A stretch of 33,395 nucleotides of DNA from positions 1-33,395 of the forward strand of contig NZ_JABXYK010000030.1 in NCBI RefSeq assembly GCF_013378445.1. Direction: 5' to 3'. Under the pieces are notes generated by a model. It ran no database searches and was not told where the DNA came from. It was given only the letters and a program-made list of their open reading frames with translations. The position numbers and the translations under genes are program-made. Below, one piece after another: positions 2,810 to 24,046 of this stretch (the first letter of the stretch is position 1; the number at the start of each line of letters is the position of its first letter). This DNA comes from Mycoplana rhizolycopersici. GTDB lineage: Bacteria; Pseudomonadota; Alphaproteobacteria; Rhizobiales; Rhizobiaceae.

Positions 2810-3625
2810 CTAGCTGGCCGGCTTTTGCGCCACGATCGCGTAGCGATGCTGCATTCCCCTCGCGGTGGCTTTGAAGAAACCGAAATGCTTGGCCTGCGCC
2901 TTGTGGATTTGCCGCAGGTTGGTGTCAGCCGCAACGGCTGAAAAGCCTGCCTCTTCAAGCATGCGGCGAACGGCATCGGCACGCGCACCGCCGGAGAAGT
3001 GAACGCGCGACAAGATGTTTTCATGCGCGCCAGCCATCACGGCTGACGCATGGGTCGCTTGCGCCTTTAGGATGCCGGCTCTTTCAAGGATGGCTGCGAG
3101 ACGCTTTACCAGCCGCTCGGCAAGGCCCGTGTTGACGAAATCACCGTCGATGATGAGCAGCTTGCCGCCCGGCTTCAGGACACGCAGCCATTCCGCAAAA
3201 CACGCCTTGGGATCGACGAGCGTCCACACAAGATGCCGCGTCACGATCACATCGTAGCTGTCGCCCGACTCCAGCGTGTTCTCCGCATCGCCGAGGTGAA
3301 AGCGGATCGCCCGGCCGCGCGACGTTGCCTTGGCACGCGCCCGTTCCAGCATGGCTTCCGACCAGTCGATGCCGGTGACGCGATAGCCTAGATCGTCCAT
3401 GAGGTGGGAAATCACACCGGTGCCACTGGCAAGGTCGAGCGCCTTGGCGCCGTTGCGACGGCCGACGTGCCGCTCGATCAAGGCATGCCAAGCGGCCCGC
3501 TCTTCCTCGGAAAAGATCTCGTGGCCCGGCGACTGGTCGAAGGTGGCCGCGCGGGCCGACCAATAGGCCTTGATTTCATCCCTCAGGGTGAAATTGGCGC
3601 CTTCCGCTATCCCCTCGCTCTGCAT
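2810..3625 (-). CDS. Class I SAM-dependent methyltransferase, iron-module paralogue
   Basis: A 271-residue soluble Rossmann-fold methyltransferase. Motif I is LDLASGTGV (64-71), the acidic residue binding the SAM ribose is Asp87, and the post-III block is VLKPGGKLLIIDGDF (149-163). The ATG at 3625 has AGGAG at good spacing. It is divergent from the FecBCD-type importer and shares its control region, including the IRO box. A paralogue sits at 18646-19434 inside the B12-controlled importer operon. Both carry the same RHLVWTL string (130-136 here), the same YW-S-(R/K)RxATFD start and a GD(F/W) after motif III. The acceptor is unknown. From context I infer action on an imported metal chelate or on a related ligand. 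Confidence 0.85.
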   Translation of the reverse strand: MQSEGIAEGANFTLRDEIKAYWSARAATFDQSPGHEIFSEEERAAWHALIERHVGRRNGAKALDLASGTGVISHLMDDLGYRVTGIDWSEAMLERARAKATSRGRAIRFHLGDAENTLESGDSYDVIVTRHLVWTLVDPKACFAEWLRVLKPGGKLLIIDGDFVNTGLAERLVKRLAAILERAGILKAQATHASAVMAGAHENILSRVHFSGGARADAVRRMLEEAGFSAVAADTNLRQIHKAQAKHFGFFKATARGMQHRYAIVAQKPAS

Positions 3626-3668: not shown

Positions 3669-3695
3669 TTGACTATGAAAGTCATCAAATAATAA
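3669..3695. promoter_or_regulatory. IRO box (RirA-type, TGA-N9-TCA) over a divergent promoter
   Basis: TGA at 3670-3672 and TCA at 3682-3684 are separated by exactly nine bases, the iron-responsive operator form bound by RirA in Rhizobiales. It overlaps a rightward -35-like TTGACT (3669-3674) followed by an AT-rich -10 region. On the other strand it overlaps a TTGATG/TATCTT pair facing the methyltransferase. Iron-dependent repression of both genes is inferred. Confidence 0.65.
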
Positions 3696-3727: not shown

Positions 3728-4858
3728 ATGCGCCCTACAGGCAAGTCCGCGATGCTGGCCGTTGGCCTTTTTGTGTCCACCGTGCTTCCCGCCTTGGCCG
3801 ATCCCGCCATCGTTGAGGACGTGACGGGTCGCGAGGTCGAAGTCAACGTTCCGGTCAGGCACGTCATCCTGGGGGAAGGCCGTCAGATCTATTTCCTTGC
3901 CGCGCTCGACAAGGAGAACCCGTTCCAGCACGTGGTCGGGTGGCGTGACGACCTGCCGAAGGCGGATCCGGAATCCTATGCCGCCTATCTCGAGAAGTAC
4001 CCGGACATCGCCAAACTGCCGACGTTCGGCGGCATGAAGGATGGCACGTTCGACATCGAGCAGGCGGTGGCCCTGAAGCCCGACGTCATCCTGATGAACG
4101 TCGATGCCAAGACCGCGACGGAGGAAGCCGGCTACATCGAGAAGCTCGCCAAGGTCGGCATTCCCTTGGTCTATGTAGATTTTCGCGAAAAGCCGATGGA
4201 AAACACCGAGCCGAGCATGCGCATCATGGGCACGCTGATGGGCAAGGAAAAGGTCGCCGAAGACTTCATCACGTTCCGCGCCGAAGCGATCAAGCAGGTG
4301 ACGGATGTGCTGGAGAAGAATAAGCCTGCGAAGCCGCTCGTCTTCATGGAGCGGGCCGGGGGCTATTCCGACGATTGCTGCATGTCCTTCGGCAATGAGA
4401 ACTTCGGTCGGATGGTCGAGCTTGCCGGCGGCACCAATCTGGCGAAGAATATCATTCCAGGCACCTTCGGTACGGTGAATCCGGAGCAAATCATCGCGTC
4501 CAATCCGGATCAGGTGATCATCACCGGCGGCATGTGGGAAGGCTATGTGCCAGGCGGGGCGTGGGTCGGCGTCGGCTATGGCGCGGATACCGCCGAAGCG
4601 CATCGCAAGCTGGAGAACCTGACAAAGCGACCGGCCTTCACCGGCATCAAGGCAGTCAAGGACGGCAATGTTCACGCCATCTGGCACCAGTTCTACAACA
4701 ACCCCTACCAGTTCGTCGCGATCCAGCAGATCGCCAAGTGGCTGCATCCGGATCTCTTCAAGGATCTGGATCCGGAAGCGACCTTCAAGGAGTTGCACGC
4801 GCGCTTCCTGCCGCTCGACTACAAGGCAGGCTACTTCGTATCGCTGAAAGACAAGTAG
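3728..4858 (+). CDS. Periplasmic binding protein of a FecB-type (siderophore/haem class) ABC importer
   Basis: A 376-residue cluster A-II binding protein. A signal peptide of about 24 residues ends in PALA and is followed by VEDVTGREVEV, the usual first strand of FecB/BtuF-like proteins. The lobe motif ALKPDVILMN is near 116-125 and a DDCC pair lies near 216-219. The ATG at 3728 has GGAG about 10 nt upstream. It is the first gene of a three-gene importer; the permease starts 3 nt after the stop. The IRO box just upstream points to an iron chelate as cargo. The exact siderophore cannot be read from sequence. Confidence 0.85.
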   Translation: MRPTGKSAMLAVGLFVSTVLPALADPAIVEDVTGREVEVNVPVRHVILGEGRQIYFLAALDKENPFQHVVGWRDDLPKADPESYAAYLEKYPDIAKLPTFGGMKDGTFDIEQAVALKPDVILMNVDAKTATEEAGYIEKLAKVGIPLVYVDFREKPMENTEPSMRIMGTLMGKEKVAEDFITFRAEAIKQVTDVLEKNKPAKPLVFMERAGGYSDDCCMSFGNENFGRMVELAGGTNLAKNIIPGTFGTVNPEQIIASNPDQVIITGGMWEGYVPGGAWVGVGYGADTAEAHRKLENLTKRPAFTGIKAVKDGNVHAIWHQFYNNPYQFVAIQQIAKWLHPDLFKDLDPEATFKELHARFLPLDYKAGYFVSLKDK

Positions 4859-4861
4859 GCC

Positions 4862-5926
4862 ATGACTGCTGTGGCCGCAGAAGCCAAGGCAACGGGTCGC
4901 GATCAGTATCGCGCCCTTGCCTTTCGGCGCATTCTCATCCTCGCCGGTCTTGCCTGTGCACTCGCCGTGAGTATCGCGACCGACATGGCGCTGGGGCCGG
5001 CGAATTACAGCTTGTCGCAGGTGCTTTCCGCGCTATTCTCGCCCGATACGGTCGGTGACCAGCTGCGTGTCGTGATCTGGGATATCCGCATGCCGATAGC
5101 GCTGATGGCCGTCACAGTCGGTGCGTCGCTTTCCGTCGCCGGGGCGCAGATGCAGACGATTTTGTCGAACCCGCTCGCCAGCCCCTTCACCCTCGGCATT
5201 TCAGCTGCGGCCAGCTTTGGTGCGGCGTTGGGGCTTGTCGGTGGCGTGGCCATCTTTCCCGGCGCGGTTCAATATATGGTACCGGTCAACGCTTTCATCA
5301 TGGCAATGGTGGCGGCACTTTTTATTCATTTTGCCTCGACACTGCGCGGCGTGACGGTCGAGACGATCGTGCTGCTCGGCATCGCGCTCGTCTTCACCTT
5401 TAATGCCGCGCTTTCGCTGCTTGAATATCTGGCTTCCGAACAGGCGCTCGCCGCCGTGGTGTTCTGGACGATGGGCAGCCTCACGAAGGCGACCTGGGAC
5501 AAGGTGTTCGTCACCGCCGCCATCCTGCTAGTAACCCTGCCGTTCTTCATCCGTAGTGCCTGGGCGCTGACGGCGCTGCGACTGGGCGACGACAAGGCGG
5601 CGAGCATGGGCGTCAACGTACGGCGCCTGCGCCTTCACACCATGCTCATCGTCAGCCTGCTCGCCGCCATTCCGGTATCGTTCGTCGGCACGATAGGCTT
5701 CGTCGGCCTTGTCGGTCCGCATATCGCCCGCATGGTGGTGGGTGAGGACCAGCGCTTCTTCTTGCCGGGTGCTGTCATCTGCGGCGCGCTGCTGCTGTCG
5801 ACGACCTCGGTCGTGAGCAAGGTGCTCATTCCCGGCGCTATCCTGCCGATCGGCGTCATCACCGCGTTCGTCGGCGTACCCTTCTTCTTTGTTCTGATTT
5901 TCTCGAACCGGAGGCGCGCATGGTAA
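4862..5926 (+). CDS. FecCD-type ABC importer permease
   Basis: A 354-residue inner-membrane permease of the BtuC/FecCD family with about ten hydrophobic segments, the usual number. Recognisable blocks are RMPIALMAV near 77-85, GAQMQTILSNPLASPFTLGIS near 94-114 (the loop that meets the ATPase), and FVGLVGPHIARM near 281-292. A tail near 323-333 reads ILPIGVITAFV. Such proteins work as dimers. The gene starts 3 nt after the binding-protein stop and overlaps the ATPase start by 7 nt, so the three genes are one translationally linked operon. No outer-membrane TonB receptor is in the window. Confidence 0.9.
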   Translation: MTAVAAEAKATGRDQYRALAFRRILILAGLACALAVSIATDMALGPANYSLSQVLSALFSPDTVGDQLRVVIWDIRMPIALMAVTVGASLSVAGAQMQTILSNPLASPFTLGISAAASFGAALGLVGGVAIFPGAVQYMVPVNAFIMAMVAALFIHFASTLRGVTVETIVLLGIALVFTFNAALSLLEYLASEQALAAVVFWTMGSLTKATWDKVFVTAAILLVTLPFFIRSAWALTALRLGDDKAASMGVNVRRLRLHTMLIVSLLAAIPVSFVGTIGFVGLVGPHIARMVVGEDQRFFLPGAVICGALLLSTTSVVSKVLIPGAILPIGVITAFVGVPFFFVLIFSNRRRAW

Positions 5927-6672
5927 GCTTGGTGCTGAAGGACGTTGGTGCCAGCTATGGCCGCACAACGGTCCTGTCCAAGGTCGCAATCGAGTTGCTG
6001 ACGCCCGGCACCACGACAGCGGTGATCGGCCCCAATGCGGCGGGGAAGTCGACGCTGTTCAAGCGGATCGCCGGGCTCATCTCCGGCCCCGGCGTCGTGC
6101 AACTCTCCGAGGCGACGCGCGGCGATCGCTCGATCTGCTACATGCCGCAGGATACAGGCTCGAATGCCGTGCTGACAGTCTACGAGTCGCTGCTGCTTGC
6201 GGCCAAGCAGGACGGCGGCTGGCGTGTGCGGGACGACGAACTTTTCGAGATCGACGCAATCCTGAAGGCGCTGCGCATCGAGGACCTCGCCTTCCGCGGG
6301 CTCGATGCGCTTTCCGGCGGCCAGCGGCAGTTGGTCTCGCTCGGCCAGGCGCTGGTGCGTAAACCCGAAGTCCTGCTGATGGACGAGCCGACGTCGGCGC
6401 TCGATCTGCACCGCCAGATCGACGTGCTGGAATTCGTCTGCGCGATCGCCAGCCGCACCGGCATGATCGTCCTGATCGCGCTGCACGACCTGAACCATGC
6501 TCTACGCTATTGCACGAACACCATCGTCATCGCCAATGGAGAAATGGCTTCGAGCGGCGTGACTACGGACGTGATCACCTCGGCCATGCTGCGTGACATC
6601 TACCGCGTCGAAGCGCGCATCGAATCCTGTTCCCGTGGCCGGCCCATGATAATAGTCGACGGCGCGCTTTGA
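5920..6672 (+). CDS. FecE-type ABC importer ATPase
   Basis: A 250-residue nucleotide-binding subunit powering the preceding permease. Walker A is GPNAAGKST (37-45), the Q-loop glutamine is Gln77, the signature is LSGGQ (131-135), Walker B is VLLMDE (151-156), and the switch histidine is His189 (ALHDLNH). This is the full set of a working ABC ATPase of the siderophore/B12 class. ATG 5920 lies inside the last codons of the permease gene. After the stop come a pyrimidine-rich stretch and 262 nt of non-coding DNA before the converging zigA gene. Confidence 0.92.
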   Translation: MVSLVLKDVGASYGRTTVLSKVAIELLTPGTTTAVIGPNAAGKSTLFKRIAGLISGPGVVQLSEATRGDRSICYMPQDTGSNAVLTVYESLLLAAKQDGGWRVRDDELFEIDAILKALRIEDLAFRGLDALSGGQRQLVSLGQALVRKPEVLLMDEPTSALDLHRQIDVLEFVCAIASRTGMIVLIALHDLNHALRYCTNTIVIANGEMASSGVTTDVITSAMLRDIYRVEARIESCSRGRPMIIVDGAL

Positions 6673-10971: not shown

Positions 10972-11029
10972 GGTGGTCCTCCTGAACGATCCGCTTGAGC
11001 CAGCGGGTGTCGGCGGTTCGGTCAATGCA

Positions 11030-11073
11030 AATGTTATTACGTTACGTTTGCGATTGACGAACGTAATAACATT
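11030..11073. promoter_or_regulatory. Pair of inverted Zur-like sites in the azt divergent promoter
   Basis: AATGTTATTACGTT (11030-11043) and its exact reverse complement AACGTAATAACATT (11060-11073) are separated by 16 nt. Each arm is itself a loose palindrome of Fur-family form; for example GTAAT-N3-ATTAC spans 11063-11075. The pair lies between the divergent CobW gene and aztA. One site probably serves each direction. Binding by the Zur encoded nearby is inferred. Confidence 0.65.
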
Positions 11074-11107
11074 ACCTATGCAGTCGCTGTCAATCCCCGA
11101 GGACGCG

Positions 11108-11917: not shown

Positions 11918-12776
11918 GGATCTGATCGGTCCATTCCTGCGCTATGGCTTCATGCAGCGCGCGCTGTTCGGATCGCTTGTCCTTTCCGTCAGTTGCGCAC
12001 CCATCGGCGTCTTCCTGATGTTGCGGCGCATGAGCCTGACGGGGGATGCGATGGCGCATGCCATTCTTCCCGGTGCGGCCGTCGGCTTCGTGCTGTTCGG
12101 GCTTCAGATCGTTCCCATGACGATCGGCGGTCTGATCGTCGGACTGCTGGTGGCGCTCGGCTCAGGCATTGTCTCGCGCTTCACCGTCCAGAAGGAGGAT
12201 GCGTCGCTTGCCGCCTTCTATCTGATTTCGCTTGCGGTCGGGGTGCTGCTGGTGTCCTGGAAGGGATCGAGCGTCGATCTCATGCATGTCCTGTTCGGCT
12301 CGGTGCTGGCGCTCAATGATGCCGCGCTCACGCTGATTGTCGGCGTCGCCGTCATCACATTTTTAGCGCTGGCGGTGTTCTGGCGCGCGCTCGTCGCCGA
12401 GTGCCTCGACCCGCTTTTTCTCCGGTCCGTCAGTCGTATCGGAACGCCTGTTCACCTCATCTTCCTGACGCTTGTCGTGCTTAACCTCGTCGGCGGGTTC
12501 CAGGCGCTCGGCACGCTGCTGTCGGTCGGCCTGATGATGCTACCCGCTGCTGCCTCCCGCTTCTGGACCAACGAGGTTCGCGCGATGTGCGTCATAGCGA
12601 TCGTCATCGCCGCCATCTCGTCGGTCAGCGGATTGCTGCTGTCCTATCACGCCTCTTTGCCGTCTGGCCCCGCCATCATCCTGACGGCGGGCGTCATCTA
12701 CGCCGTCTCCGCCCTGGTCGGGACGCGGGGAATGCTTCCGACTGCCCTGACGTCCCGGCGTCACAAAACCGCCTGA
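11910..12776 (+). CDS. aztB: AztB, zinc ABC importer permease
   Basis: A 288-residue integral membrane protein of the ABC-3 (ZnuB) family with about eight hydrophobic helices. Family marks are RRMSLTGDAMAHAILPGAAVG (39-59) near the N-terminus and GTLLSVGLMMLPAAASR in the second half, the loop that contacts the ATPase. ATG 11910 overlaps the aztA stop (ATGTATGA), showing translational coupling. It forms the membrane channel for zinc delivered by AztC. No unusual residues noted. Confidence 0.92.
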   Translation: MYEDLIGPFLRYGFMQRALFGSLVLSVSCAPIGVFLMLRRMSLTGDAMAHAILPGAAVGFVLFGLQIVPMTIGGLIVGLLVALGSGIVSRFTVQKEDASLAAFYLISLAVGVLLVSWKGSSVDLMHVLFGSVLALNDAALTLIVGVAVITFLALAVFWRALVAECLDPLFLRSVSRIGTPVHLIFLTLVVLNLVGGFQALGTLLSVGLMMLPAAASRFWTNEVRAMCVIAIVIAAISSVSGLLLSYHASLPSGPAIILTAGVIYAVSALVGTRGMLPTALTSRRHKTA

Positions 12777-12795
12777 TCAACCCAAGGAGATCTCC

Positions 12796-13770
12796 ATGTT
12801 CAACACTCTACGTTTTGCCACCTATGCCAGCCTCCTCACGCTTGGCGGCTTTGCCTCCAGCGCATCAGCTGCTGAGCTGAAGGTGGTCGCCAGCTTTTCG
12901 ATCATCGCCGACTTCGCCAAGAACGTCGGCGGCGACCGCGTGGAAATCTCCACGCTGGTTGGACCGGACGGAGACGCGCATGTCTATGAACCGCGCCCGG
13001 CAGATGCTGCCGCTCTGGAAGGAGCCGATGTCGTTCTCGTCAACGGTCTTCAGTTCGAGGGCTTCATGTCACGCCTCATTGAAGCCAGCGGCACGAAAGC
13101 CTCGGTGGTCGAGGTCACCAAGGGGATCGAGCCGCTCAAGAGTGCCGAAGAAGAGCACGAGGCCGTGGAGAAGACCGAGGCTGGACATGATCACGAAGAA
13201 GCGGGTCACGATCATGGGCACGAGGGTCATCATCACGGTGAGTTCGATCCACACGCCTGGCAGTCGATCCACAATGCCGAGATCTATGTGAAGAATATCG
13301 CCGATGCCTTCTGCGAGGCCGACAAGGCCGGTTGCGCGACATATACGGCCAACTCCGAGGCCTATATTGCCAGGCTCGGTAAACTTGAGACCGAGGTGAA
13401 GGCCGCAATCGAAGCCATTCCTGCCGACAAGCGCACGGTGATCACCTCCCATGATGCCTTTGGCTATTTCGAACACGAATACGGCCTCAGGTTCATCGCG
13501 CCAGAGGGCATCTCGACGGAAGCGGAAGCCTCTGCCGCCGACGTGGCAAAATTGATCGATCAGGTGAAGCACGACAAGGCGTCGGCGATCTTCCTCGAGA
13601 ACATCACCAATCCGCGTCTCATCGAGCAGATCTCGACTGAAACCGGCATCAGGATCGGCGGCACGCTGTACTCGGACGCCCTGTCCGGGCGCGAAGGCCC
13701 CGCATCCAACTATATCGATATGTTCCGCTACAACGTGAACACGATGCAGGCCGCGATCCTCGGAAGCTGA
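12796..13770 (+). CDS. aztC: AztC, zinc-binding periplasmic protein
   Basis: A 324-residue cluster A-I (ZnuA-like) binding protein with a signal peptide to about residue 26 (SSASA). Zinc ligands by family alignment are His62 (DAHVYEP), His153 (FDPHAW), His219 (TSHDAFGY) and Asp294 (YSDALS). A flexible His-rich loop covers 121-147, as expected for zinc capture and receipt from AztD. ATG 12796 follows AAGGAG. It is third in aztABC, 19 nt after aztB. Zinc rather than manganese is supported by the His/Asp site and the surrounding zur, aztD and zigA genes. Confidence 0.92.
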   Translation: MFNTLRFATYASLLTLGGFASSASAAELKVVASFSIIADFAKNVGGDRVEISTLVGPDGDAHVYEPRPADAAALEGADVVLVNGLQFEGFMSRLIEASGTKASVVEVTKGIEPLKSAEEEHEAVEKTEAGHDHEEAGHDHGHEGHHHGEFDPHAWQSIHNAEIYVKNIADAFCEADKAGCATYTANSEAYIARLGKLETEVKAAIEAIPADKRTVITSHDAFGYFEHEYGLRFIAPEGISTEAEASAADVAKLIDQVKHDKASAIFLENITNPRLIEQISTETGIRIGGTLYSDALSGREGPASNYIDMFRYNVNTMQAAILGS

Positions 13771-13778
13771 ACCTATGG

Positions 13779-13802
13779 CTTGCCCGGCTCATGCCGGGCA
13801 AG
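13779..13802 (+). other. Perfect 10-bp hairpin just after aztC
   Basis: CTTGCCCGGC, loop TCAT, GCCGGGCAAG, beginning 8 nt after the aztC stop. No T-run follows. It may be an mRNA 3'-end stabiliser that keeps AztC high and lowers the downstream GTPase. An ATG at 13775 overlaps it, which argues against that codon as the real start of the next gene. Confidence 0.6.
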
Positions 13803-13840
13803 CCCCTGATCTGACATTCAACCCATGGATTCCCAGCAGC

Positions 13841-14968
13841 ATGATTGGCGGCCTGTTCAAGCGGTGGCGCAACTCAACCGATCCCACGGAGGATGACGTG
13901 AGACGGCTTTACGATTCCCAGCCGGTCACGCTGCTGACCGGCTTTCTTGGCTCGGGCAAGACAACTCTGCTGAATGACATCCTGGTCGATCCGGCCATGC
14001 ACGGGACAGCCGTTATCGTCAACGAGTTCGGAACCGTCCCGATCGATCACGATCTCGTCCGCAAGGGCTCCGAAACCTATTTCCGTACGACGACCGGCTG
14101 CATCTGCTGCACGGCGACAAGCGATATCAGAAGCTCCTTGTCAGAGCTTCACGAGGCGCGGCTTCGTGGCGAAATACCGCCTGTCTCACGGGTCGTGATC
14201 GAGACGACCGGACTGGCCGATCCTGCTCCCATCATCAACAGCATTATCCCCGGCGGATCACCTGCCATGGGGCTGAGAGATCACGTGGTCGCGCGGCATT
14301 TTCATCTCGCCCGCGTCGTGACGGCTTTCGACGTGGTCAACGGGCGTGCAACCCTCACTAGCTTCATGGAAGGCTGGAAACAGCTCGCCTTTGCCGACCA
14401 TGTGGTCCTGACCAAGACAGATATCGCAGATCCGGCCCACGACTGGCCAGATGAGCTGAGGGCTCTCAATCCTGCGGCAGTCTACCATGATCGCCATCGA
14501 CAGGATTTCAATCTGTCCGGGCTATTCGGTGACGGCGCCTATTCCGTCACGGGCAAGGCCGAGGAGGTGCCTGCCTGGCTGGCCATGGAGAGGCTCGGGG
14601 CTCACGGCGATCACGCCCACGACCCCAACCGGCATGGGGATGAAATCGAGGCGATCAGCCTGAGCCACGATGTCCCCCTCTCGCCCCAGGCCGTCGAGAC
14701 CTTTCTGCATATCGTGACGACAGACATCGGCTCCGGTCTTCTGCGCCTGAAGGGTCTGTTCGCGCTCGCCGACGACCCAACCCGTCCGCTGGTCGCCCAC
14801 GCGGTGCAGCACCGGCTCTATCCGCTTCAGCGCCTGGAACATTGGCCGGACGAAGATCACAGCAGCCGCGTGGTCCTCATCGGTCAGGACATGCCGGCCA
14901 AACCGCTTCGGGATCTCTTCGAAGTACTGGCTCCGCGCGCGGCAAGAAAGAGGCGAGGTGCGGCATGA
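13841..14968 (+). CDS. CobW/COG0523 GTPase, third copy in the zinc island
   Basis: A G3E GTPase of 375 residues from ATG 13841. Walker A is GFLGSGKT (34-41), metal motif TGCICCT (Cys87, Cys89, Cys90), [11 protein letters not shown] switch block, and LTKTDI for base recognition. A His-rich HGDHAHDPNRHGDE linker precedes the C-terminal domain. Start is uncertain: GTG 13898 has a perfect GGAGG at 5 nt and would remove 19 residues, while codon bias supports coding from 13841. ATG 13775 lies at the hairpin and is unlikely. It is co-directional with aztABC and overlaps the next small gene by ATGA. Likely zinc trafficking, but cobalt is possible given the B12 operon after it. Confidence 0.82.
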   Translation: MIGGLFKRWRNSTDPTEDDVRRLYDSQPVTLLTGFLGSGKTTLLNDILVDPAMHGTAVIVNEFGTVPIDHDLVRKGSETYFRTTTGCICCTATSDIRSSLSELHEARLRGEIPPVSRVVIETTGLADPAPIINSIIPGGSPAMGLRDHVVARHFHLARVVTAFDVVNGRATLTSFMEGWKQLAFADHVVLTKTDIADPAHDWPDELRALNPAAVYHDRHRQDFNLSGLFGDGAYSVTGKAEEVPAWLAMERLGAHGDHAHDPNRHGDEIEAISLSHDVPLSPQAVETFLHIVTTDIGSGLLRLKGLFALADDPTRPLVAHAVQHRLYPLQRLEHWPDEDHSSRVVLIGQDMPAKPLRDLFEVLAPRAARKRRGAA

Positions 14969-15309: not shown

Positions 15310-15373
15310 GGTCGTTCGCTGCGTCTCCAAGTCGGGCCTTGACCAGGCACCAGCTTCTCCATTAACTGGCCGC

Positions 15374-15575
15374 GACGGTTCCCCTACCCATGAGGCGGAG
15401 GGGAATAATAGGGAACACGGTGCGGACGACCCGCATGGGACCAAAGCCGTGGCTGCCCCCGCAACTGTAAGCGGATTGCCGTCCATCCTTGTGGCGCATA
15501 GCGCCATGCCACTGTGCGAGCAGCACGGGAAGGCAGATGGACGGCGGATATCCGTGAGCCAGGAGACCTGCCGTC
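15374..15575 (+). ncRNA. Cobalamin (B12) riboswitch
   Basis: The class I cobalamin element is almost complete: GACGGTTCCCC at the start, AATAGGGAACACGGTGCGGA, then GCCGTGGCTGCCCCCGCAAC and TGTAAGCGG, a GCCACTG...GGGAAGGC arm, and the diagnostic B12 box GCCAGGAGACCTGCC at 15558-15572. It precedes the ABC importer operon on the same strand. A small hairpin (15595-15610, CGGGC/GCCCG) sits directly before the next ribosome site and may be the expression platform. Binding of adenosylcobalamin would lower downstream expression. Confidence 0.95.
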
Positions 15576-15625
15576 ACATATCGATCCATCGTCACGGGCG
15601 GGGAAGCCCGGAACAGGAGTATGCA

Positions 15626-15709
15626 ATGAAGATCACCAGCGCCTCGCGGCGTGGACCGACGCTGCCTTTCCCCAGACCTGTCGATTGTTCGATCGTGCGG
15701 ACGGCCTGA
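15626..15709 (+). CDS. Candidate 27-residue leader ORF after the riboswitch
   Basis: ATG 15626 is preceded by AGGAG at 6-nt spacing, the best ribosome site between the riboswitch and the first importer gene. The peptide begins MKITSASRRGPTLPFPRP and ends at TGA 15709. It is basic and proline-rich, with no signal peptide or known domain. The importer gene starts 60 nt later with a weak ribosome site. A leader whose initiation is switched by B12 is one reading; chance is the other. Confidence 0.4.
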   Translation: MKITSASRRGPTLPFPRPVDCSIVRTA

Positions 15710-15769
15710 CCGTCCCTTCGTTTCGCCCTGCCGACTTGCGCGGCTTTCAATCCATATTTGGGACAGATC

Positions 15770-16801
15770 ATGACATCGCTTTTCAAAACGCCGCTTCGCG
15801 CGGGTTTGCTGTTCGCATCACTGGCGGCCGCCTCCTTTGCCAGTGCCGCGCAGGCTGCCGAGACCACCTATCCGTTGACACTGGAAAACTGCGGTCGCCA
15901 GATCACTATCGAGAAGGCACCGACACAGACCGTGTCGATCGGCCAAAGCAGCACCGAAATCCTCTATCTGCTCGGCCTTGCCGACAAGGTCGCGGGCACC
16001 GCGCTATGGGTTGGTCCCGTCTTAAAGGGTTATGAGGAAGTCAATGCCAGGATCGACCGCCTGGCCGACAACGATCCGAGCTTCGAAAGCGTGCTTGCCA
16101 AGAAGCCTGACATCATTACCGTTCAGTTCCAGTGGCAGGTCGGCCCGGAGGGTGTCGTCGCCAAGCCCGAGCAGTTTGAGGAACTGGGTATTCCCGTCTA
16201 TACTTCTCCGTCCGATTGCACCGGGAAGGAGAACTCCGCCGCCAGCGACGGTGTGCGTCATCAGGTCTTCACCATGGACCTCGTCTATCAGGAGATCCGC
16301 GAACTGGCGCAGATCTACAACGTCCAGGACAAGGGCGAGGAGGTCGTCGCCGATCTGAAGAAGCGCGAACAGGCGGCCCGCGCCAAGGTGGCGTCGGCCG
16401 AGGGCAAGCTGTCGGCCGTCTTCTGGTTCTCCAGCGCCGCGGACGCCGATCCGTATGTCGCGGGAAAGAACGGGGCGCCGGGCTACATCATGTCGGCGCT
16501 CGGCATTGAAAACATCATCAAGACCGACGACGAATGGCCGACAGTCGGGTGGGAAACGATCGCAAAGGCCAACCCGACGATCATTGTCGCGGGTTCCATG
16601 GAACGCCGCCGCTATCCGCTGGACAGCCTGGAGGCCAAGCTCGATTTCCTGAAGACCGATCCCGTCGCCAGCCTCATGCCGGCGGTGAAGAACGGCCATG
16701 TCTTCAACATGGACGCTCAGGCCATGAACCCGACGATCCGCACGATCGAGGGCATCGAGGCGTTGGCAGACGCCATCGCCGAAGCCGGCCTTGCCCAGTG
16801 A
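15770..16801 (+). CDS. Periplasmic binding protein of B12-controlled importer (first)
   Basis: A 343-residue cluster A-II (BtuF/FecB-like) binding protein. The signal peptide ends near residue 29 (AAQA) and the mature part begins TTYPLTLENCGRQITIEKAP. Further blocks are STEILYLLGLADKVAGTA, KKPDIITVQFQW and VGWETIAKANPTIIVAG. A cysteine in ENCGR and another in PSDCTGK may pair. ATG 15770 is chosen over an upstream in-frame TTG; its ribosome site is weak. Riboswitch control points to a corrinoid, its precursor or a cobalt chelate as cargo. A close paralogue ends the same operon. Confidence 0.88.
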   Translation: MTSLFKTPLRAGLLFASLAAASFASAAQAAETTYPLTLENCGRQITIEKAPTQTVSIGQSSTEILYLLGLADKVAGTALWVGPVLKGYEEVNARIDRLADNDPSFESVLAKKPDIITVQFQWQVGPEGVVAKPEQFEELGIPVYTSPSDCTGKENSAASDGVRHQVFTMDLVYQEIRELAQIYNVQDKGEEVVADLKKREQAARAKVASAEGKLSAVFWFSSAADADPYVAGKNGAPGYIMSALGIENIIKTDDEWPTVGWETIAKANPTIIVAGSMERRRYPLDSLEAKLDFLKTDPVASLMPAVKNGHVFNMDAQAMNPTIRTIEGIEALADAIAEAGLAQ

Positions 16802-17826
16802 GCCGGACGCTGACATCGATCGGACGAACGGGGGCGGCATTCGCCGCGCTCGCCATTCTGCTGATCGCACTCTGGCTAGGAGCGGCGATCGGTGAAACGG
16901 CCATACCGTTCTCGACCGTGGCACAGACGGTGGCAAACCGGCTCTGGAACGCGGGCTATCCGCTGGAGCCGATCGACGAAGGCATCATCTGGAGCTATCG
17001 CCTCAGCCGTGCCGTGGTCGCCGCCTCTTGCGGCGCGGCGCTGGCGCTTTCCGGTGCCGTGCTACAATCGCTGCTGCGCAATCCACTGGCCGATCCCTAT
17101 ATTCTCGGCATCTCGGCGGGCGCTTCGACGGGTGCTGTCAGCGTTGCCATCCTCGGGTTCGGCGCTGGGATGTTGACCATGCCGCTCGGCGCCTTCCTCG
17201 GCGCGCTCATCGCCTTCGTGCTGGTCAGTGTGCTGGCGGTGAAGGCGGGGCGCGGTACGGCGGCGATCATCCTGGCAGGCGTCGCAGGTTCGCAACTCTT
17301 CAACGCGCTCACATCCTTCATCGTTACCAAGGCGGCGACGGCCGAGCAAGCCCGCGGCATCATGTTCTGGCTGCTCGGAAACCTATCGGGCGTGCGCTGG
17401 CCGGATGCCTGGCTGGCGGTGCCGGCAGCGCTCGTCGGCCTCGCCGTCTGCCTCTGGCACGCCCGCGCGCTCGACGCCTTCACCTTCGGCCAGGAATCGG
17501 CCGCCTCGCTCGGCATCTCGGTGAGGCGCACCTATCTGGCCCTCGTCGGCGTCTCGGCGATGATGACGGCCGTCATGGTCTCGATCGTGGGATCGATCGG
17601 CTTCGTCGGGCTCGTCATTCCCCATGCCGCGCGGATGCTGGTCGGCGTGCGGCACGGTGTCCTGCTTCCCGCCGCCGCGTTGATCGGCGCGGTCTTCATG
17701 ATTATCGCGGACATCCTGTCGCGTACGCTGATCCCCGGCCAGGTGCTGCCGATCGGCGTGATCACCGCACTCGTCGGCGCGCCTGCCTTCGCACTCATTC
17801 TCGGACAAAGGAGGGCGCGGGCATGA
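16798..17826 (+). CDS. BtuC/FecCD-type ABC permease of the B12-controlled importer
   Basis: A 342-residue permease with about ten membrane helices. Family blocks are SYRLSRAVVAASCGAALALS (64-83), LRNPLADPYILGISAGAS for the ATPase contact, and GFVGLVIPHAARMLVG near the end, followed by QVLPIGVITALVG. The GTG start at 16798 overlaps the preceding TGA (GTGA), so translation is coupled. It resembles the iron-module permease at 4862-5926 in fold and order, but clearly differs in sequence. It works as a dimer with the next gene's ATPase. Confidence 0.88.
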   Translation: MSRTLTSIGRTGAAFAALAILLIALWLGAAIGETAIPFSTVAQTVANRLWNAGYPLEPIDEGIIWSYRLSRAVVAASCGAALALSGAVLQSLLRNPLADPYILGISAGASTGAVSVAILGFGAGMLTMPLGAFLGALIAFVLVSVLAVKAGRGTAAIILAGVAGSQLFNALTSFIVTKAATAEQARGIMFWLLGNLSGVRWPDAWLAVPAALVGLAVCLWHARALDAFTFGQESAASLGISVRRTYLALVGVSAMMTAVMVSIVGSIGFVGLVIPHAARMLVGVRHGVLLPAAALIGAVFMIIADILSRTLIPGQVLPIGVITALVGAPAFALILGQRRARA

Positions 17827-18641
17827 CGCTTTCAGCCGATCACGTTTCCTGGTCCGCCGGCGGCGCGGATATCTTGAAGGGCGTGTCACTCACCGTCGAG
17901 ACCGGCGAATTCCTTGGCATCATCGGTCCGAACGGATCGGGCAAGACGAGCCTGATGTCGCTGCTTGCAGGCATCCGCAAACCGAAGTCGGGCGCGGTCC
18001 TCATGGACGGTACGCCGATCGGGGAGCTTGGTAGGCGTGCCGTGGCGCAGCGTCTGGCTTTCGTCGAGCAGCAGGCGGAGACAGGGGAGCGGATCACGGC
18101 GCGGCAAGCGGTCGAACTCGGCCGCACTCCCTATCTAGGACCTTTGTCGCCGTGGACGTCGCAGGATGACAGTATAGTCGACGCGGCTCTCGAAAACGTC
18201 GATATGACACACCTCGCCGAAAGGTTCTGGCACACGCTTTCGGGTGGCGAACGGCAGCGCCTGCACATCGCTCGGGCGCTTGCGCAGCAACCCAAGATCC
18301 TGTTGCTCGACGAGCCGACCAATCATCTCGACATCGGTCACCAGATCAGTCTTCTCGATCTGGTCCAGCGCCAGGATCTGACAGTGGTGGCGGCACTGCA
18401 CGATCTCAATCACGCCGCCATGTTCTGCGACCGCATCGCCGTCATGCAGGGCGGTTGTCTCGTGGCTCTCGGCCAGCCGCGGGAGGTGCTGACAGAGGCA
18501 CGGATACGAGACGTGTTCGGCGTTAATGTCGATATCGAGCAGGACAGCGGCGGCATCTGCCACATCCGCTTCCTGACGCGACGTTCGCAAGGCAGGACCA
18601 ACCTCGCACGACCGGCACCTCTATCCGTGATGGGGGCTTGA
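17823..18641 (+). CDS. BtuD/FecE-type ABC ATPase of the B12-controlled importer
   Basis: A 272-residue ATPase with Walker A GPNGSGKTS near 40-48, a Q-loop in FVEQQAE, signature LSGGERQRL, Walker B ILLLDEPTNHLD and switch histidine in ALHDLNHAA. ATG 17823 overlaps the permease stop by ATGA. About 25 residues beyond the usual end form a basic tail (LTRRSQGRTNLARP). A much longer in-frame extension upstream overlaps the permease gene and is rejected. Substrate is as for the operon: probably a corrinoid or cobalt complex. Confidence 0.9.
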   Translation: MTLSADHVSWSAGGADILKGVSLTVETGEFLGIIGPNGSGKTSLMSLLAGIRKPKSGAVLMDGTPIGELGRRAVAQRLAFVEQQAETGERITARQAVELGRTPYLGPLSPWTSQDDSIVDAALENVDMTHLAERFWHTLSGGERQRLHIARALAQQPKILLLDEPTNHLDIGHQISLLDLVQRQDLTVVAALHDLNHAAMFCDRIAVMQGGCLVALGQPREVLTEARIRDVFGVNVDIEQDSGGICHIRFLTRRSQGRTNLARPAPLSVMGA

Positions 18642-18645
18642 ACCA

Positions 18646-19434
18646 ATGGACATGCGCAACCACGACCTCAAGGAAGACATCCGGGAGTACTGGTCGAAAC
18701 GGTCCGCGACCTTCGATCTGGCGTTCGGGCACCGCATCCCGCCGGGTCCGGAACTGGAGGCCTGGGCGGCAGCCGTGCGCGACGCGATCGGGCCGGAGCC
18801 CAAAAGGGTGCTGGAGCTTGCCTGCGGCACGGGAGAGGTGACGAATGTCCTGCTCTCGCTTGGCCATGAGGTGACGGCGCTCGATTTTTCCGAAGCTATG
18901 CTCGGCGTGGCGCGAACGAAGCACGCAGGCAACACACGCGTTCGGTTTGTGCTTGCCGATGCCGAGCGCACGATGGAACCCGACGAAGCCTATGATGCGG
19001 TGATCTGCCGGCATCTGGTCTGGACACTGACGGAGCCGGAACAGGCGTTGGCCGACTGGATCCGGGTGTTGAAGCCGGGCGGCAGGCTGCTCGTCTTTGA
19101 TGGCGATTGGACGCAACCAACGCGTATGGGCCGGCTCGCGGGCCTTGCTGTCCGCCTGATCGAGCGCCTTATCGGACATGATCCCTACTATGACGGCGCC
19201 ATGAGCGAGAAGCACGCCGATATCATGAGGCGACTTCCGTTTAGCGACGGGCTGACGGCTGAGCGCCTCGAACCGCTGGTGCGAGAGGCGGGTTTCGTGA
19301 ACATCGCCTTCCCATCCCATCGGTCGATCGCCATGGCTCAGCGCAAGGATGCTGATCTCAGAAACAGATTGCGCACCCTGTTCTACCGGCGGTTCGTCCT
19401 TGTGGCATCCCGCCCTGTCGATGTGGCCTCATGA
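18646..19434 (+). CDS. Class I SAM-dependent methyltransferase in the B12-controlled operon
   Basis: A 262-residue methyltransferase beginning 4 nt after the ATPase stop. Motif I is VLELACGTGEVT (55-66), Asp80 is the ribose-binding acid, and the block VLKPGGRLLVFDGDW spans 141-155. It carries RHLVWTL (122-128) and a YWSKRSATFD start like the enzyme at 2810-3625, so the two are paralogues. ATG 18646 is used; ATG 18652 is also possible. No cobalamin-biosynthesis methyltransferase (CbiH/CobJ type) signature is seen, so this is not a known corrin-ring enzyme. Action on an imported corrinoid or metallophore is inferred only from position. Confidence 0.85.
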   Translation: MDMRNHDLKEDIREYWSKRSATFDLAFGHRIPPGPELEAWAAAVRDAIGPEPKRVLELACGTGEVTNVLLSLGHEVTALDFSEAMLGVARTKHAGNTRVRFVLADAERTMEPDEAYDAVICRHLVWTLTEPEQALADWIRVLKPGGRLLVFDGDWTQPTRMGRLAGLAVRLIERLIGHDPYYDGAMSEKHADIMRRLPFSDGLTAERLEPLVREAGFVNIAFPSHRSIAMAQRKDADLRNRLRTLFYRRFVLVASRPVDVAS

Positions 19435-19471
19435 CAGCGCGGCCGATCAGACCGTTCAAAGGATTTCAACG

Positions 19472-20491
19472 GTGAAGAACAGTTTCGTATCATCTCTTCC
19501 AGCCGCCCTGGTCGCCCTGTCGATAACGGTCCCTTCAACTGGCTTGGCTCAGGAAACAGTTTACCCGTTGACGATCGAGAATTGCGGTCGGCAGCTTACC
19601 TTTTACAAGGCGCCCTCGCGCGCCTTCGCCGACGGGCAAAATTCAGCGGAAGTGTTCTACCTGTTGGGCCTTGGCGACAAGGTTGCCGGCACAGCACTCT
19701 GGATTGGGCCGGTGCTGGAAGGTTTTGAAAAGGTGGACGCACGGGTTCCCCGTATTGCCGAGCTTGATCCGAGCTTCGAGGGTATTCTGGCGACAAAACC
19801 AGATTTTGTCGCGACGCAGTTCCAGTGGCAGATCGGTCCGGAAGGCGTGGTGGCCAGGGTCGAGCAGTTCGAGGAATTGAGTATCCCAGTCTACACAGCA
19901 CCGGCTGATTGCCACTTGAAGGGTAAGAATGCGGATGGCGCCGAGCCGCCAAAGTTCTCAATGGATCTGATTTATCGGGAAATCGACGAGATCGCGCGCA
20001 TCTTCAATGTTGCCGACCGGGGCAGGACGGTCATTGGTGAGATGAAGGCGCGTGAGCAGGCAGTGAAAGCGCGGGTAGTAGCGCTGAAGGGTGATGTATC
20101 TGCGCTCTTCTGGTATTCCAGCGCCAAGCTCAATGCGGACCCGTATGTGGCGGGCGAGGGCGGTGTTCCGGCATATCTCATGGCAGAGCTAGGAATTCGA
20201 AATGTTGTCGACAGCAACGAGGAGTGGCCGACCGTCGGCTGGGAAACCGTTGCCAAAGCGAACCCGACAATCATTATAGCCGGTGACATGACAAGACGGC
20301 GCTTCGAGGGGGACGACATTGCGGTCAAGCTCGATTTCCTCAGGCATGATCCGGTTGCCAGTGTCATGAAGGCTGCGCGGCAGGGGCAGATTGTCGAGAT
20401 GAGTGTCCAACTCATGGATCCGACTGTCAGAACCATCCGTGGATTGGAGGTTCTTGCAGATGCGCTGGAGAGGTACGAATTCGTCCGGTAA
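19472..20491 (+). CDS. Second periplasmic binding protein of the B12-controlled operon
   Basis: A 339-residue paralogue of the binding protein at 15770-16801. The signal peptide ends near residue 27 (TGLAQ), then ETVYPLTIENCGRQLTFYKAP. Shared blocks include AEVFYLLGLGDKVAGTALWI, QFQWQIGPEGVVA and WPTVGWETVAKANPTIIIAG. The start is GTG 19472 with AAGGA upstream; the frame runs further back into the methyltransferase gene but without a better start. It keeps the ENC and ADC cysteines. Two related receptors with one permease suggest two related ligands, perhaps the methylated and unmethylated forms. Confidence 0.85.
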   Translation: MKNSFVSSLPAALVALSITVPSTGLAQETVYPLTIENCGRQLTFYKAPSRAFADGQNSAEVFYLLGLGDKVAGTALWIGPVLEGFEKVDARVPRIAELDPSFEGILATKPDFVATQFQWQIGPEGVVARVEQFEELSIPVYTAPADCHLKGKNADGAEPPKFSMDLIYREIDEIARIFNVADRGRTVIGEMKAREQAVKARVVALKGDVSALFWYSSAKLNADPYVAGEGGVPAYLMAELGIRNVVDSNEEWPTVGWETVAKANPTIIIAGDMTRRRFEGDDIAVKLDFLRHDPVASVMKAARQGQIVEMSVQLMDPTVRTIRGLEVLADALERYEFVR

Positions 20492-21060: not shown

Positions 21061-22542
21061 TTAGCCTGTGATCGATGATTGATTTGTATCGGCCGATAGC
21101 GCTTTCGACCAATCAACGTTTGCGGTAGCCTGGGCCGAAGAGGTGTACCTCGTTAAATAGTGTCCGTTACCCGGGCGGTTCAGAACTTGACCATTTTCCA
21201 TGACCACCGAACCCCGCAGCATTGTGGCGATCGGCCAGCCAGTGACTTCAAAGCCTTCCCAGGGCGTGTAGTCGCTGCCGTGGTGCAGGGTCTCCTGACG
21301 GATGGTCTCCTTGCGATTTGGATCCCACAGGACGAGATCGGCGTCGCTGCCGACCGCGATCGTGCCCTTGCGGGGATAGAGGCCGTAGGTTCGCGCATGA
21401 TTGGTCGCCGTCAGTGCCACAAATTTCTCAAGACTGATGCGGCCCTTGCTCACCCCTTCGGAGAACAGGATGGCCAGCCGTGTCTCGACGCCGGGAATGC
21501 CGTTGGGCACCCAGCGGAACGACGTTCTGGCCTTCGGCGTATCCTTGCCGCGGCCGTCTTCGTCCTGAAAGAAGAAGGGGCAATGATCCGAGGAGAACAG
21601 TTCCAGCGTGCCGTCCACAAGACCCTGCCATATGGCGGCCTGGCTTTCGGCGTCCCTCGGCGGTGGCGAGCAGACATATTTGGCGCCTTCGAAACCCATG
21701 TTGAGGTCGCGTAGATCGTCTGCCGTCAGGGTGATGTATTGCGGACACGTCTCCGCCGACACCTTGAGGCCACGCGCCCTTGCCCAGCGGATCTGCTCGA
21801 GTGCTTCGCGGCCCGAAACGTGGACGATGACGATCGGGATGCCGGTGATCTCGGCATGGCTGATCGCCCGATGCGTGGCTTCCCGCTCCACGATCTCCGG
21901 CCGCGAGAGCGCGTGGTAATAGGGCGCGACATGACCCTCGCGCTCCAGCTTTTCCGAGAGGAAGCGAATGGCATCGTAGCCTTCGGCGTGTACCATGACG
22001 GTGGCGCCATGCGCGCCGGCGACCGCGAAGACCTCAAGCAATTGCCGGTCGTTCAACACAAGGTCGTCATAGGTCATGAAGACCTTGAAGGAGCTGTATC
22101 CTGCCTCGATCAGCGCCGGCAGTTCCTGCCCGAGGACCTGCGGTGTGGGGTCCGAGATGATCAGGTGGAAGCTCACGTCGACGTGGCACTTCCCGTCGGC
22201 CTGCGCATGATATTCGGCGACGGCCTCGCGTAGCGACTGGCCCTTCTTCTGCAGCGCGAAGGCAAGCACGGTCGTCGTTCCGCCGGCCGCCGCCGACCGG
22301 GTGCCGCTCTCGAAATCGTCGGCCATCACCGAGGCGTCGGACGATGGCTGCGACAGATGCACGTGGCTGTCGATGCCGCCCGGCAGGACCAGCAGGCCGG
22401 ATGCGTCTATCAGTTCGTCGGCGCCGGAAAGTTCGGCGGCAAGCGCGGTGATGCGCCCGTCCTTGATTCCGATATCGGCGATGTAACGATCCGCCGCGGT
22501 GACGATCATGCCGCCCTTGACGATTGTGTCGAATGCCATCAT
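21061..22542 (-). CDS. Dihydropyrimidinase / D-hydantoinase family cyclic amidase
   Basis: A 493-residue amidohydrolase, the usual size for hydantoinases. The two-metal site is complete: His60 and His62 (SHVHLS), carboxylated Lys153 (SSFKVFM), His185 (HAEGYD), His241 (HVSGRE) and Asp319 (SSDHCPF). The AETCPQYI block (263-270) is also typical. Such enzymes open five- or six-membered cyclic ureides. ATG 22542 (MMAFD) has GAGGA at good distance; a TTG 18 nt upstream is less likely. It is last in the leftward operon, downstream of the racemase-like genes. Substrate could be hydantoin, dihydrouracil or a related ring; sequence alone does not decide. Confidence 0.88.
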   Translation of the reverse strand: MMAFDTIVKGGMIVTAADRYIADIGIKDGRITALAAELSGADELIDASGLLVLPGGIDSHVHLSQPSSDASVMADDFESGTRSAAAGGTTTVLAFALQKKGQSLREAVAEYHAQADGKCHVDVSFHLIISDPTPQVLGQELPALIEAGYSSFKVFMTYDDLVLNDRQLLEVFAVAGAHGATVMVHAEGYDAIRFLSEKLEREGHVAPYYHALSRPEIVEREATHRAISHAEITGIPIVIVHVSGREALEQIRWARARGLKVSAETCPQYITLTADDLRDLNMGFEGAKYVCSPPPRDAESQAAIWQGLVDGTLELFSSDHCPFFFQDEDGRGKDTPKARTSFRWVPNGIPGVETRLAILFSEGVSKGRISLEKFVALTATNHARTYGLYPRKGTIAVGSDADLVLWDPNRKETIRQETLHHGSDYTPWEGFEVTGWPIATMLRGSVVMENGQVLNRPGNGHYLTRYTSSAQATANVDWSKALSADTNQSSITG

Positions 22543-22556
22543 TGGGAAATTCCTCT

Positions 22557-23225
22557 TCAATTCGCTGCGCGCAGCATCAGTCCGAGACGCTTCAGCGCCG
22601 TCGTAACCGGATCGATGATCGGCGGGGCGAAACGGAGGTCGAGGCGGCGCGCGGCCGCTGAAAGCGGGCCGCCGGCAACCAGCACGGCCTTTGCGCCGTC
22701 CTCGGCCATCACCTGGCTGATCAGCCGGCCGAGTTCCCGGTCGAGCCTGTCGGCATCCGCCATGACTTCGGCGGGCACGCCGGGCGTCAATCGGATCGAC
22801 CGCAACTGACGACAGACGCCCAGCCCTTCGACCTGCCGCCGGATCGACGTTTCAAGCTCCGGCGTCGTGGTGACGATGGAAAAGGGGCGACCGCCGGCGG
22901 AGGCTTCTGCGATCGCGGATTCGCCGATCCCGACCACGGGCACGGGAGCGCGCAGCCTGAGTGCTGCAAGACCCGGATCACCGAAAGCACCAATCACGAT
23001 GGCATCGGCGGGCCAGCCCGTCTCCGCCATCCTGTCAGCGAAGGCGTCAACAGCGAGGCTGGCCGTATCGAGGTCCGGCGGATTGATAATGATCGGCGCT
23101 CCGAAGTCGGCTGTGCGGCCTTCGACGTCCGCCCAGTTCCGGGCGGTTTCGTGCGCGATGGCGACCATTTCGGCCGTCGTGGTGGAACTCGTATTCGGGT
23201 TGAACAGAACAACAAGGCTTTTCAT
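22557..23225 (-). CDS. Asp/Glu/hydantoin racemase-fold protein A, catalytic cysteines absent
   Basis: A 222-residue member of the Asp/Glu/hydantoin racemase superfamily, with N-terminal LFNPNTSSTTT and a GDPGL block. Active hydantoin racemases have Cys in the (A/N)C-F-x-D-P-G-L loop and again in a G-C-A-G loop. Here these positions are Ala80 (IGAFGDPGL) and Gly185 (AGGPLS). The only cysteine is Cys138. The gene overlaps the stop of racemase-like B by ATGA and precedes the hydantoinase. A cysteine-dependent racemase reaction is therefore doubtful; a lyase, decarboxylase or binding role is possible. Confidence 0.82.
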   Translation of the reverse strand: MKSLVVLFNPNTSSTTTAEMVAIAHETARNWADVEGRTADFGAPIIINPPDLDTASLAVDAFADRMAETGWPADAIVIGAFGDPGLAALRLRAPVPVVGIGESAIAEASAGGRPFSIVTTTPELETSIRRQVEGLGVCRQLRSIRLTPGVPAEVMADADRLDRELGRLISQVMAEDGAKAVLVAGGPLSAAARRLDLRFAPPIIDPVTTALKRLGLMLRAAN

Positions 23226-24046
23226 GGGGTATTGGGCATAGTTCTGGAAGTCAGTCCCGCAGGCACGGCTGTCAGGCCCGCGCCGATCGCCGGCCTGTGT
23301 TCTATCCAGGCGGCCAGTGGCGGAAAAAGTCCCTCGGCGGATTTGGGGCCCGGCCGGGCGAAGCGTCCGGCGCTTGCGGCACGGGGTTTTAGCCGTGCGA
23401 GGGTCTGGGCCTGGCTCACGGCGGCGGCCAGCGGATCGACGAGAGGTACGGAGACGCGGTGTGCGATGCGCTGCGCCAGGCCGGTCAGCGGCGCGCCCGC
23501 GAGGATCAGCACGTCTGCGCCGTGTTCCCTGACCGTATTTTCGGCAAGCGCGACAATCTCGTTCTCAAGCTCGTACTGCACAGTCGAGACGGACTGGAAG
23601 CTGACATCCGGCACGCGAATGGCGGCGCAGCGATGGTTCAGCCCTGTTACGGCGACTGCGTCCTCGTACCACGCGACCAGCGTGCGCGAGAAGGTGAGCA
23701 TGGCAAAGCGCTCGCCCAGCATGCAGGAGGTCAGCATGGCCGATTCTGCCATGGCAGTGATCGGCAGCTCGAAGAGTTCGCGCGCTGCGATCAGGCTCGG
23801 ATCGCCGAATGCTGCAATGACGGCTGCGTCACAGCCGTGATGATGCTCGGCCAGCATTTCGAGCGTTATGCCGCCGGCGATCATGGCTTCGGCCCGGCTG
23901 GCGATATAGGGAAAGCCGCGCGTCGCGGTGAACGCGACGAGTTCGGTATCGGGTGCCAGCACTGACTGGGCTGTGGCCACCATGCGTTCCGTCATTTCCA
24001 CCGAAGTGTTCGGATTGATCAGCAATATCTTCAAGGTCGTCTCCAC
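23222..24046 (-). CDS. Asp/Glu/hydantoin racemase-fold protein B, catalytic cysteines absent
   Basis: A 274-residue paralogue of protein A: ILLINPNTSVEMTERM, IAAFGDPSL at 77-85 and LAGAPLTGLAQRI at 182-194. The two usual catalytic Cys positions are again Ala79 and Gly184/Ala185; remaining cysteines (72, 108, 140) are elsewhere. About 50 extra C-terminal residues are rich in Ala, Pro and Arg. GTG 24046 is used; TTG 24034 would give the more typical MKILLINPN start with GGAG upstream. It begins 4 nt after the amidase stop. A tandem pair of the same altered fold suggests a heteromer or two related substrates. Confidence 0.8.
   Translation of the reverse strand: METTLKILLINPNTSVEMTERMVATAQSVLAPDTELVAFTATRGFPYIASRAEAMIAGGITLEMLAEHHHGCDAAVIAAFGDPSLIAARELFELPITAMAESAMLTSCMLGERFAMLTFSRTLVAWYEDAVAVTGLNHRCAAIRVPDVSFQSVSTVQYELENEIVALAENTVREHGADVLILAGAPLTGLAQRIAHRVSVPLVDPLAAAVSQAQTLARLKPRAASAGRFARPGPKSAEGLFPPLAAWIEHRPAIGAGLTAVPAGLTSRTMPNTP

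Follow-up and report, generated by a model that had tools for sequence, protein, structure and literature searches.

The window analyzed here is the entire 33,395-base contig C30 of the Mycoplana rhizolycopersici genome, and the subject of this text is an operon within it that is headed by a cobalamin (adenosylcobalamin, AdoCbl) riboswitch and joins the three genes of an ATP-binding cassette (ABC) importer to a gene for a class I methyltransferase (MT) and a gene for a second binding protein. An earlier note on this DNA had listed the same order of riboswitch, binding protein, permease, ATPase, MT and second binding protein, and we confirmed it with the RF00174 model (gathering score 31.5 bits) and with Pfam matches (Table 1). 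The note had recognized the riboswitch correctly; its operon start at 15374 cut off the first 15 bases, and the aptamer begins at 15359. All five genes lie on the plus strand. The gene for the first binding protein, SBP1, overlaps the permease gene by 4 nucleotides (nt), as the permease gene does the ATPase gene, and the gene for the methyltransferase, MT1, begins 4 nt past the ATPase stop; a gap of 37 nt separates it from the gene for the second binding protein, SBP2. For SBP1, an alternative TTG start is possible upstream, at 15758. The two binding proteins share 56-59% identity. The predicted model of SBP1 has a mean predicted local distance difference test score (pLDDT) of 89, and its nearest solved fold is 4mlz, which is not known to have a ligand.

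Table 1. Features of the riboswitch operon and of the paralogous importer set in the window
Feature	Position	Strand	Remarks
Cobalamin (AdoCbl) riboswitch aptamer	15359..15589	+	RF00174, 124.9 bits, E 3.3e-31, full length
SBP1, CbtJ-like periplasmic binding protein	15770..16801	+	ATG start; Peripla_BP_2 179 bits
CbtK-like FecCD permease	16798..17826	+	GTG start; FecCD 293 bits
CbtL-like ABC ATPase	17823..18641	+	ABC_tran 128 bits
MT1, class I S-adenosylmethionine (SAM)-dependent methyltransferase, importer companion	18646..19434	+	Methyltransf_11 84 bits
SBP2, second CbtJ-like binding protein	19472..20491	+	GTG start; Peripla_BP_2 112 bits
MT2, paralogous class I MT, divergent from siderophore-type importer	2810..3625	-	38% identical to MT1
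TGA-N9-TCA palindrome (RirA/IRO-type box) between MT2 and importer	3670..3684		pattern search; putative
Siderophore-type periplasmic binding protein	3728..4858	+	ferrichrome/ferrioxamine-type model 235 bits, cut-off 374
Siderophore-type FecCD permease	4862..5926	+	40% identical to Cbt-type permease
Siderophore-type ABC ATPase	5920..6672	+	31% identical to Cbt-type ATPase

The importer genes and their riboswitch

Close counterparts of the importer are found in Sinorhizobium meliloti. At locus L149 of strain 4H41, binding protein, permease and ATPase follow in the same order as in the window and share 84%, 93% and 79% identity with SBP1, the permease and the ATPase, respectively; the MT gene comes directly after cbtL, and its product is 80% identical to MT1. 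Both L149 and the pSymB locus L222 show the same gene order behind the same riboswitch. On pSymB of S. meliloti 1021, the riboswitch occupies positions 66246-66475 of the record, just 5' of the binding protein gene at 66647. This position agrees with the site of candidate B31, which a passage of PMC2780559 places between SMb20055 and SMb20056, and a passage of PMC2245857 locates a cobalamin riboswitch before smb20056. From these matching positions we deduce that cbtJ is SMb20056. Because of this deduction and the orthology, the first three genes of the window operon are predicted to be CbtJKL. The available passages of PMC7689651 place CbtJKL on pSymB under the control of an AdoCbl riboswitch and describe it as a Co(II) transport system that was initially taken for a cobalamin transporter and whose knock-outs needed 1-10 µM CoCl2 for growth; brief statements in passages of PMC12239276, PMC4207669 and PMC6249242 call it a cobalt uptake system. 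A CbtJKL-type importer is therefore the part of the operon that is already known, with the evidence for Co(II) transport coming from S. meliloti through this literature.

A survey of 397 genomes of the order returned 23 places with a Cbt-type locus, defined by at least 50% identity to SBP1 and counted without the window's second receptor. At 21 of the 23, a cobalamin riboswitch lies within 1.2 kb upstream; in G050 it is 4.3 kb away, and in G262 none was found. Relatives of SBP1 below 50% identity occur at 29 places, and none of the 23 that were fetched has a cobalamin riboswitch.

The genome carries five further cobalamin riboswitches, with one each preceding metH, bluB and cbtBA; behind the cbtBA riboswitch are a cobN-like frame and cobU- and cobW-like frames (names given by eye). 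Because bluB, cbtAB and metH stand behind cobalamin riboswitches and a cobN match is present, the cell probably makes its own B12 and needs cobalt. The BtuB model (TIGR01779) has 12 matches in this genome, the best at 146 bits against a cut-off of 599.7, and the receptor that matches it best scores higher with catecholate siderophore receptor models. Another of the five, a cobalamin riboswitch of 114.9 bits (G000:C7:231291-231485, L068), precedes a pair of glycine-betaine-monooxygenase-like genes, which score 513 and 384 bits, below their cut-offs of 670 and 500; it would be unusual for B12 to regulate the demethylation of betaine.

The methyltransferase as a companion of metal importers

METHYLTRANSFERASE accompanies metal importers. 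Searching with peptide patterns of MT1 yielded 118 named genome loci, of which the best 80 were analyzed; since they were picked by likeness to MT1, the shares below tell where MT1 is placed and not how frequent it is among importers. Binding protein, permease, ATPase and MT stand in this order in 72 of the 80, and in all of these except L145 a cobalamin riboswitch lies within 1.2 kb. The resulting 71 of 80 loci bear out the earlier note in treating MT and importer as a unit, one that recurs under this riboswitch. At three other loci (L183, L186 and L199, from Rhizobium rhizogenes and Agrobacterium) the MT is the last gene of a different riboswitch operon, composed of a CbiX/ferredoxin-like gene, an SBP_bac_5 binding protein, two BPD permeases (Nik-type) and the MT, as assigned by Pfam in L186 and by similarity in L183 and L199. 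In L219 the MT follows a Dpp/Nik-type operon.

The genome surveys point the same way. MT1 matches 33 places in 31 of the 397 genomes of the order, and importer genes adjoin 31 of them: 6 are Cbt-type, 24 are siderophore-type FecCD importers and 1 is Nik/Dpp-type (G378). Of the two places without importer genes, one is a short second copy in G050 and the other a weak match in G305. A survey of the class found eight MT places outside the window, seven of them adjoining importers (one Cbt-type with riboswitch, five siderophore-type and one inside a Dpp-type operon). In these counts the matches in G305 and G440, where no importer was found, are scored as misses. As a control, we used the 23 Methyltransf_11 matches in this genome: both members of the family adjoin importer genes, and among the remaining 21 a single one has an ABC match, a weak one, at a distance of up to about 1.5 kb.

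The second family member, MT2, belongs to a paralogous MT-importer set within the same window that the earlier note had missed (Table 1). Of 32 regions preceding the siderophore-type binding protein, 20 carry a TGA-N9-TCA motif of the RirA type, as described in a passage of PMC8822346, where mononucleotide shuffles predict 2.0; among the 12 regions that lack it, three belong to second, downstream receptor copies. The motif suggests RirA-type control of the paralogous set. None of the 29 siderophore-type MT loci fetched has a cobalamin riboswitch. The window holds both sets, and in Neorhizobium petrolearium (L153:3700-6092) an iron-side, MT2-type set likewise adjoins the cobalt-side operon.

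MT1 itself is predicted to be a class I SAM-dependent MT, with Methyltransf_11 and Methyltransf_25 scores (84 and 80 bits) over the cut-offs and a predicted model with pLDDT 92.3. The SAM-binding motif LELACGTGE is intact or nearly so in 42 MT sequences. Additionally, D24, H29, H123 and W126 are invariant over these 42, two of which are iron-side MTs, and these residues may line the substrate side. The pN/pS ratio of 0.09-0.18 across four strains indicates purifying selection. For phylogeny we used an unrooted tree of 77 rows, which excluded stretches shorter than 180 amino acids (L040, L232); L213, which has a stop codon in the stretch, and L196 were left out of the alignments. The riboswitch-linked MTs form one group (100/98) together with four Nik/Dpp-linked and three unlinked rows. 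Siderophore-linked MTs fall into two groups, one of 25 rows (96/86) and a small one of four that neighbors the riboswitch-linked group. Fold comparison was discarded as a pointer to the substrate, as MT1 has 1501 matches at E <= 0.001 and the best 50 rows of the 1501 have mixed functions; a sequence search of solved structures likewise indicated no substrate.

The second receptor and neighboring genes

Intact SBP2 is found at the same place in the window, Rhizobium sp. Root482, Shinella fusca and R. subbaraonis (L142-L144 for the latter three), and remnants of it persist as fragments in L146 and as a broken copy beside a truncated MT in L196. Additionally, DNA 77% identical to it occurs in at least 19 listed records of A. 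tumefaciens plasmids, where it is annotated as two features and, in one record examined, lies away from any MT. The four SBP2 rows form a clade (100/100, branch 0.56) that groups with the binding protein of G300 (98/80) and not with SBP1, and a recent in-place duplication was accordingly rejected as its origin. At pN/pS 0.16-0.23 in four strains, SBP2 is under purifying selection. Four alignment positions (T61, D99, N100 and F219 in SBP1 numbering) are fixed in one receptor type and different in the other. SBP2 is both rare and old. Independent extra receptors are present in L212 and L215.

Several neighbors of these genes were recorded. A zinc block spans 8704-14968 of the window, with AztD at 8704-9942 (minus strand) and AztABC at 10970-13770 (plus strand), and CobW/ZigA-type GTPases lie at 6935-8137 and 9985-11118 (both minus) and at 13775-14968 (plus); parts of the block also adjoin MT or Cbt genes in L145, L148 and L155. 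Behind the operon, at 21061-24046 on the minus strand, are a cyclic-amidase-like frame (hydantoinase/dihydropyrimidinase by eye) and two racemase-like frames. Elsewhere, a secreted protein of 144-146 amino acids, cupredoxin-like by eye, immediately follows or overlaps the Cbt-type ATPase in L108, L111 and L118. A second cobalamin riboswitch begins just 3' of the MT in L159, L160, L187 and L211 (at about 8830-9160), and at L186:9365-11551, 3' of the MT, are frames resembling by eye an ACR3 arsenite exporter and ArsH.

Possible roles of the methyltransferase and comparison with known systems

The explanation that we prefer, and whose chance of being right as a whole we put at about even, is that this is a CbtJKL-type cobalt importer operon with an MT acting on the ligand that enters with the metal. 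AdoCbl would switch the operon off through the riboswitch, and cobalt would be imported when the cell's own B12 synthesis runs short. In the cytoplasm, the MT would act on the incoming ligand, for example by methylating a donor group, and this methylation would help to free the metal or prevent the ligand from rebinding it. With the second receptor, a single permease would be supplied from a broader set of cobalt chelates. More generally, the MT family would accompany importers of metal chelates, whether of cobalt or iron and whether FecCD-type or Nik/Dpp-type. If a single chemistry serves two metals and importers of two superfamilies, a corrin is a less likely substrate than something that they have in common, for which a chelating ligand is the simplest candidate. 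Judged from gene neighborhoods, the MT thus most likely acts on the ligand of the imported metal; we infer its substrate and role, as well as the role of the second receptor.

The earlier note had put forward either a corrinoid or a cobalt chelate as the cargo. In the corrinoid version, cobalamin, cobinamide or other corrinoids would be imported and methylated by the MT, with one receptor for each ligand form. The riboswitch does sense cobalamin, the permease and ATPase resemble the BtuC and BtuD models as well as they do siderophore models, and the best NCBIfam match of MT1 is CpaM (NF043040, corrinoid protein-associated methyltransferase), although at 73 bits (59 bits for MT2) it is far below the cut-off of 180. 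A corrinoid importer was rejected as first choice because the BtuF, BtuC and BtuD models all score below their cut-offs (BtuF at 28 bits against 234), no BtuB exceeds its own, and the importer is orthologous to CbtJKL, which according to the passages of PMC7689651 imports Co(II) and had earlier been misidentified as transporting cobalamin. Related MTs, moreover, adjoin siderophore-type importers with iron boxes and, in riboswitch operons, Nik-type importers with a CbiX-like gene. Corrinoid salvage is therefore improbable, as the siderophore-type and Nik/Dpp-type partners of related MTs also indicate; of the note's two cargoes, the cobalt chelate agrees with the explanation preferred here.

Two further readings keep the metal and give the MT another task. 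In one, the MT makes or modifies a secreted chelator, and the operon would link production of a chelator for cobalt (or iron) with its uptake. MTs beside importers of both metals fit this idea, as do the small-molecule N- and O-methyltransferases among the nearest solved folds. However, no exporter was seen in the window operon, and the conserved unit consists of importer and MT alone with no other biosynthetic gene, as far as neighbors beyond the unit were annotated, which was done in some loci. We consider such metallophore synthesis unlikely. In the other, the MT would serve metal protection or sensing by methylating a protein, a lipid or a toxic metal or metalloid that shares the importer (as ArsM does), unrelated to the chelate. 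That the MTs are conserved beside importers of two metals is equally compatible with this reading and with a ligand substrate, and MT1 and MT2 show a weak similarity to arsenite methyltransferase models (34-53 bits, far below the cut-offs); no ArsM model comes near its cut-off, and we give this reading a similarly small probability.

Several observations weigh against an MT acting on an imported ligand. The weakest point is that the passages of PMC7689651 describe CbtJKL as a Co(II) importer, with CoCl2 supplied and no chelator named, which leaves the ligand on which the MT would act hypothetical. MT1 falls below every curated NCBIfam family cut-off, and its closest solved structures, at 12-26% identity, vary in function. 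The fetched stretches of L183, L186 and L199 revealed no ABC ATPase, and no importer was found beside the MT in four of the 80 named loci (L147, L148, L196, which is truncated, and L198). The presence of cobN does not set the Cbt-type genomes apart (23/23 vs 324/374 others, p 0.10). A sample of 319 genomes of the phylum yielded no MT match at E 1e-30 outside the class; the family may thus be restricted to Alphaproteobacteria.

The MT is also dispensable. The earlier note had proposed the five-gene order as a test of the unit, and here the outcome is mixed: in the even sample of the order, just 6 of 23 Cbt-type loci have the MT, one more (G366, L114) has a divergent MT of 218 amino acids overlapping the ATPase stop, and the second receptor is rare. 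The MT is missing in G295 and G349, the next relatives in the survey (SBP 84-85% identical), where it was probably lost since both nest beside an MT-bearing relative on the permease tree. On that tree its presence needs 9 changes, at least 7 of them by well-supported branches. We looked for a conserved replacement gene after the ATPase in 17 MT-less loci and discarded the idea, having found just small recurring sets and the divergent MT of L114. Such a scattered distribution (6 of 23 loci with the MT, at least 7 changes) is what would be expected if the MT were a hitch-hiker, kept next to importers through joint transfer of the whole block between genomes and having no function in common with them. 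The purifying selection on MT1, its partners from two ABC superfamilies and the 31 of 33 places that adjoin importers speak against this, and we hold it to be very unlikely.

A broader version of the ligand-methylation proposal is possible but doubtful, namely that the MTs represent an unrecognized family of import-coupled, ligand-methylating enzymes in Alphaproteobacteria. Importers of cobalt chelates and of iron chelates, drawn from two unrelated ABC superfamilies, would then be served by a single class I MT lineage, which would alter the incoming ligand such that the metal is released and kept released, as a counterpart of siderophore hydrolases and reductases. How cobalt is freed after import and handed on for B12 synthesis is poorly known, and the MT gene directly follows cbtL in S. 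meliloti, a laboratory strain whose growth is known to depend on cobalt. If the MTs do act on imported ligands, the family would also be relevant to the iron nutrition of rhizobia, because its paralogues adjoin siderophore-type importers with RirA-type boxes. Our searches of open-licence papers turned up no description of an MT that is conserved beside importers of cobalt and iron chelates, nor of the second receptor, and these two elements may be new relative to the literature.

Of known systems, CbtJKL of S. meliloti is the closest, sharing the riboswitch, the gene order, an MT gene in next position and three importer proteins that are 79-93% identical (L149). The window operon differs in adding a second binding protein, and the available passages on CbtJKL name no MT. 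BtuFCD is likewise a FecCD-type ABC importer under cobalamin riboswitch control, but the window proteins score 28, 230 and 128 bits with the BtuF, BtuC and BtuD models against cut-offs of 234, 461 and 281, and this genome has no BtuB over the cut-off. EitABC provides the best NCBIfam matches of SBP1, SBP2 and the ATPase (345, 277 and 306 bits), which nevertheless remain under the cut-offs of 640, 640 and 485 bits, and none of the 23 fetched relatives in the order below 50% identity has the cobalamin riboswitch that heads the window operon. Finally, Nik-type systems under B12 riboswitches have been reported from other phyla in a passage of PMC2667541. L183, L186 and L199 represent this type, with an MT as the last gene; their importer belongs to an unrelated superfamily that is absent from the window, and their fetched stretches show no ATPase gene.

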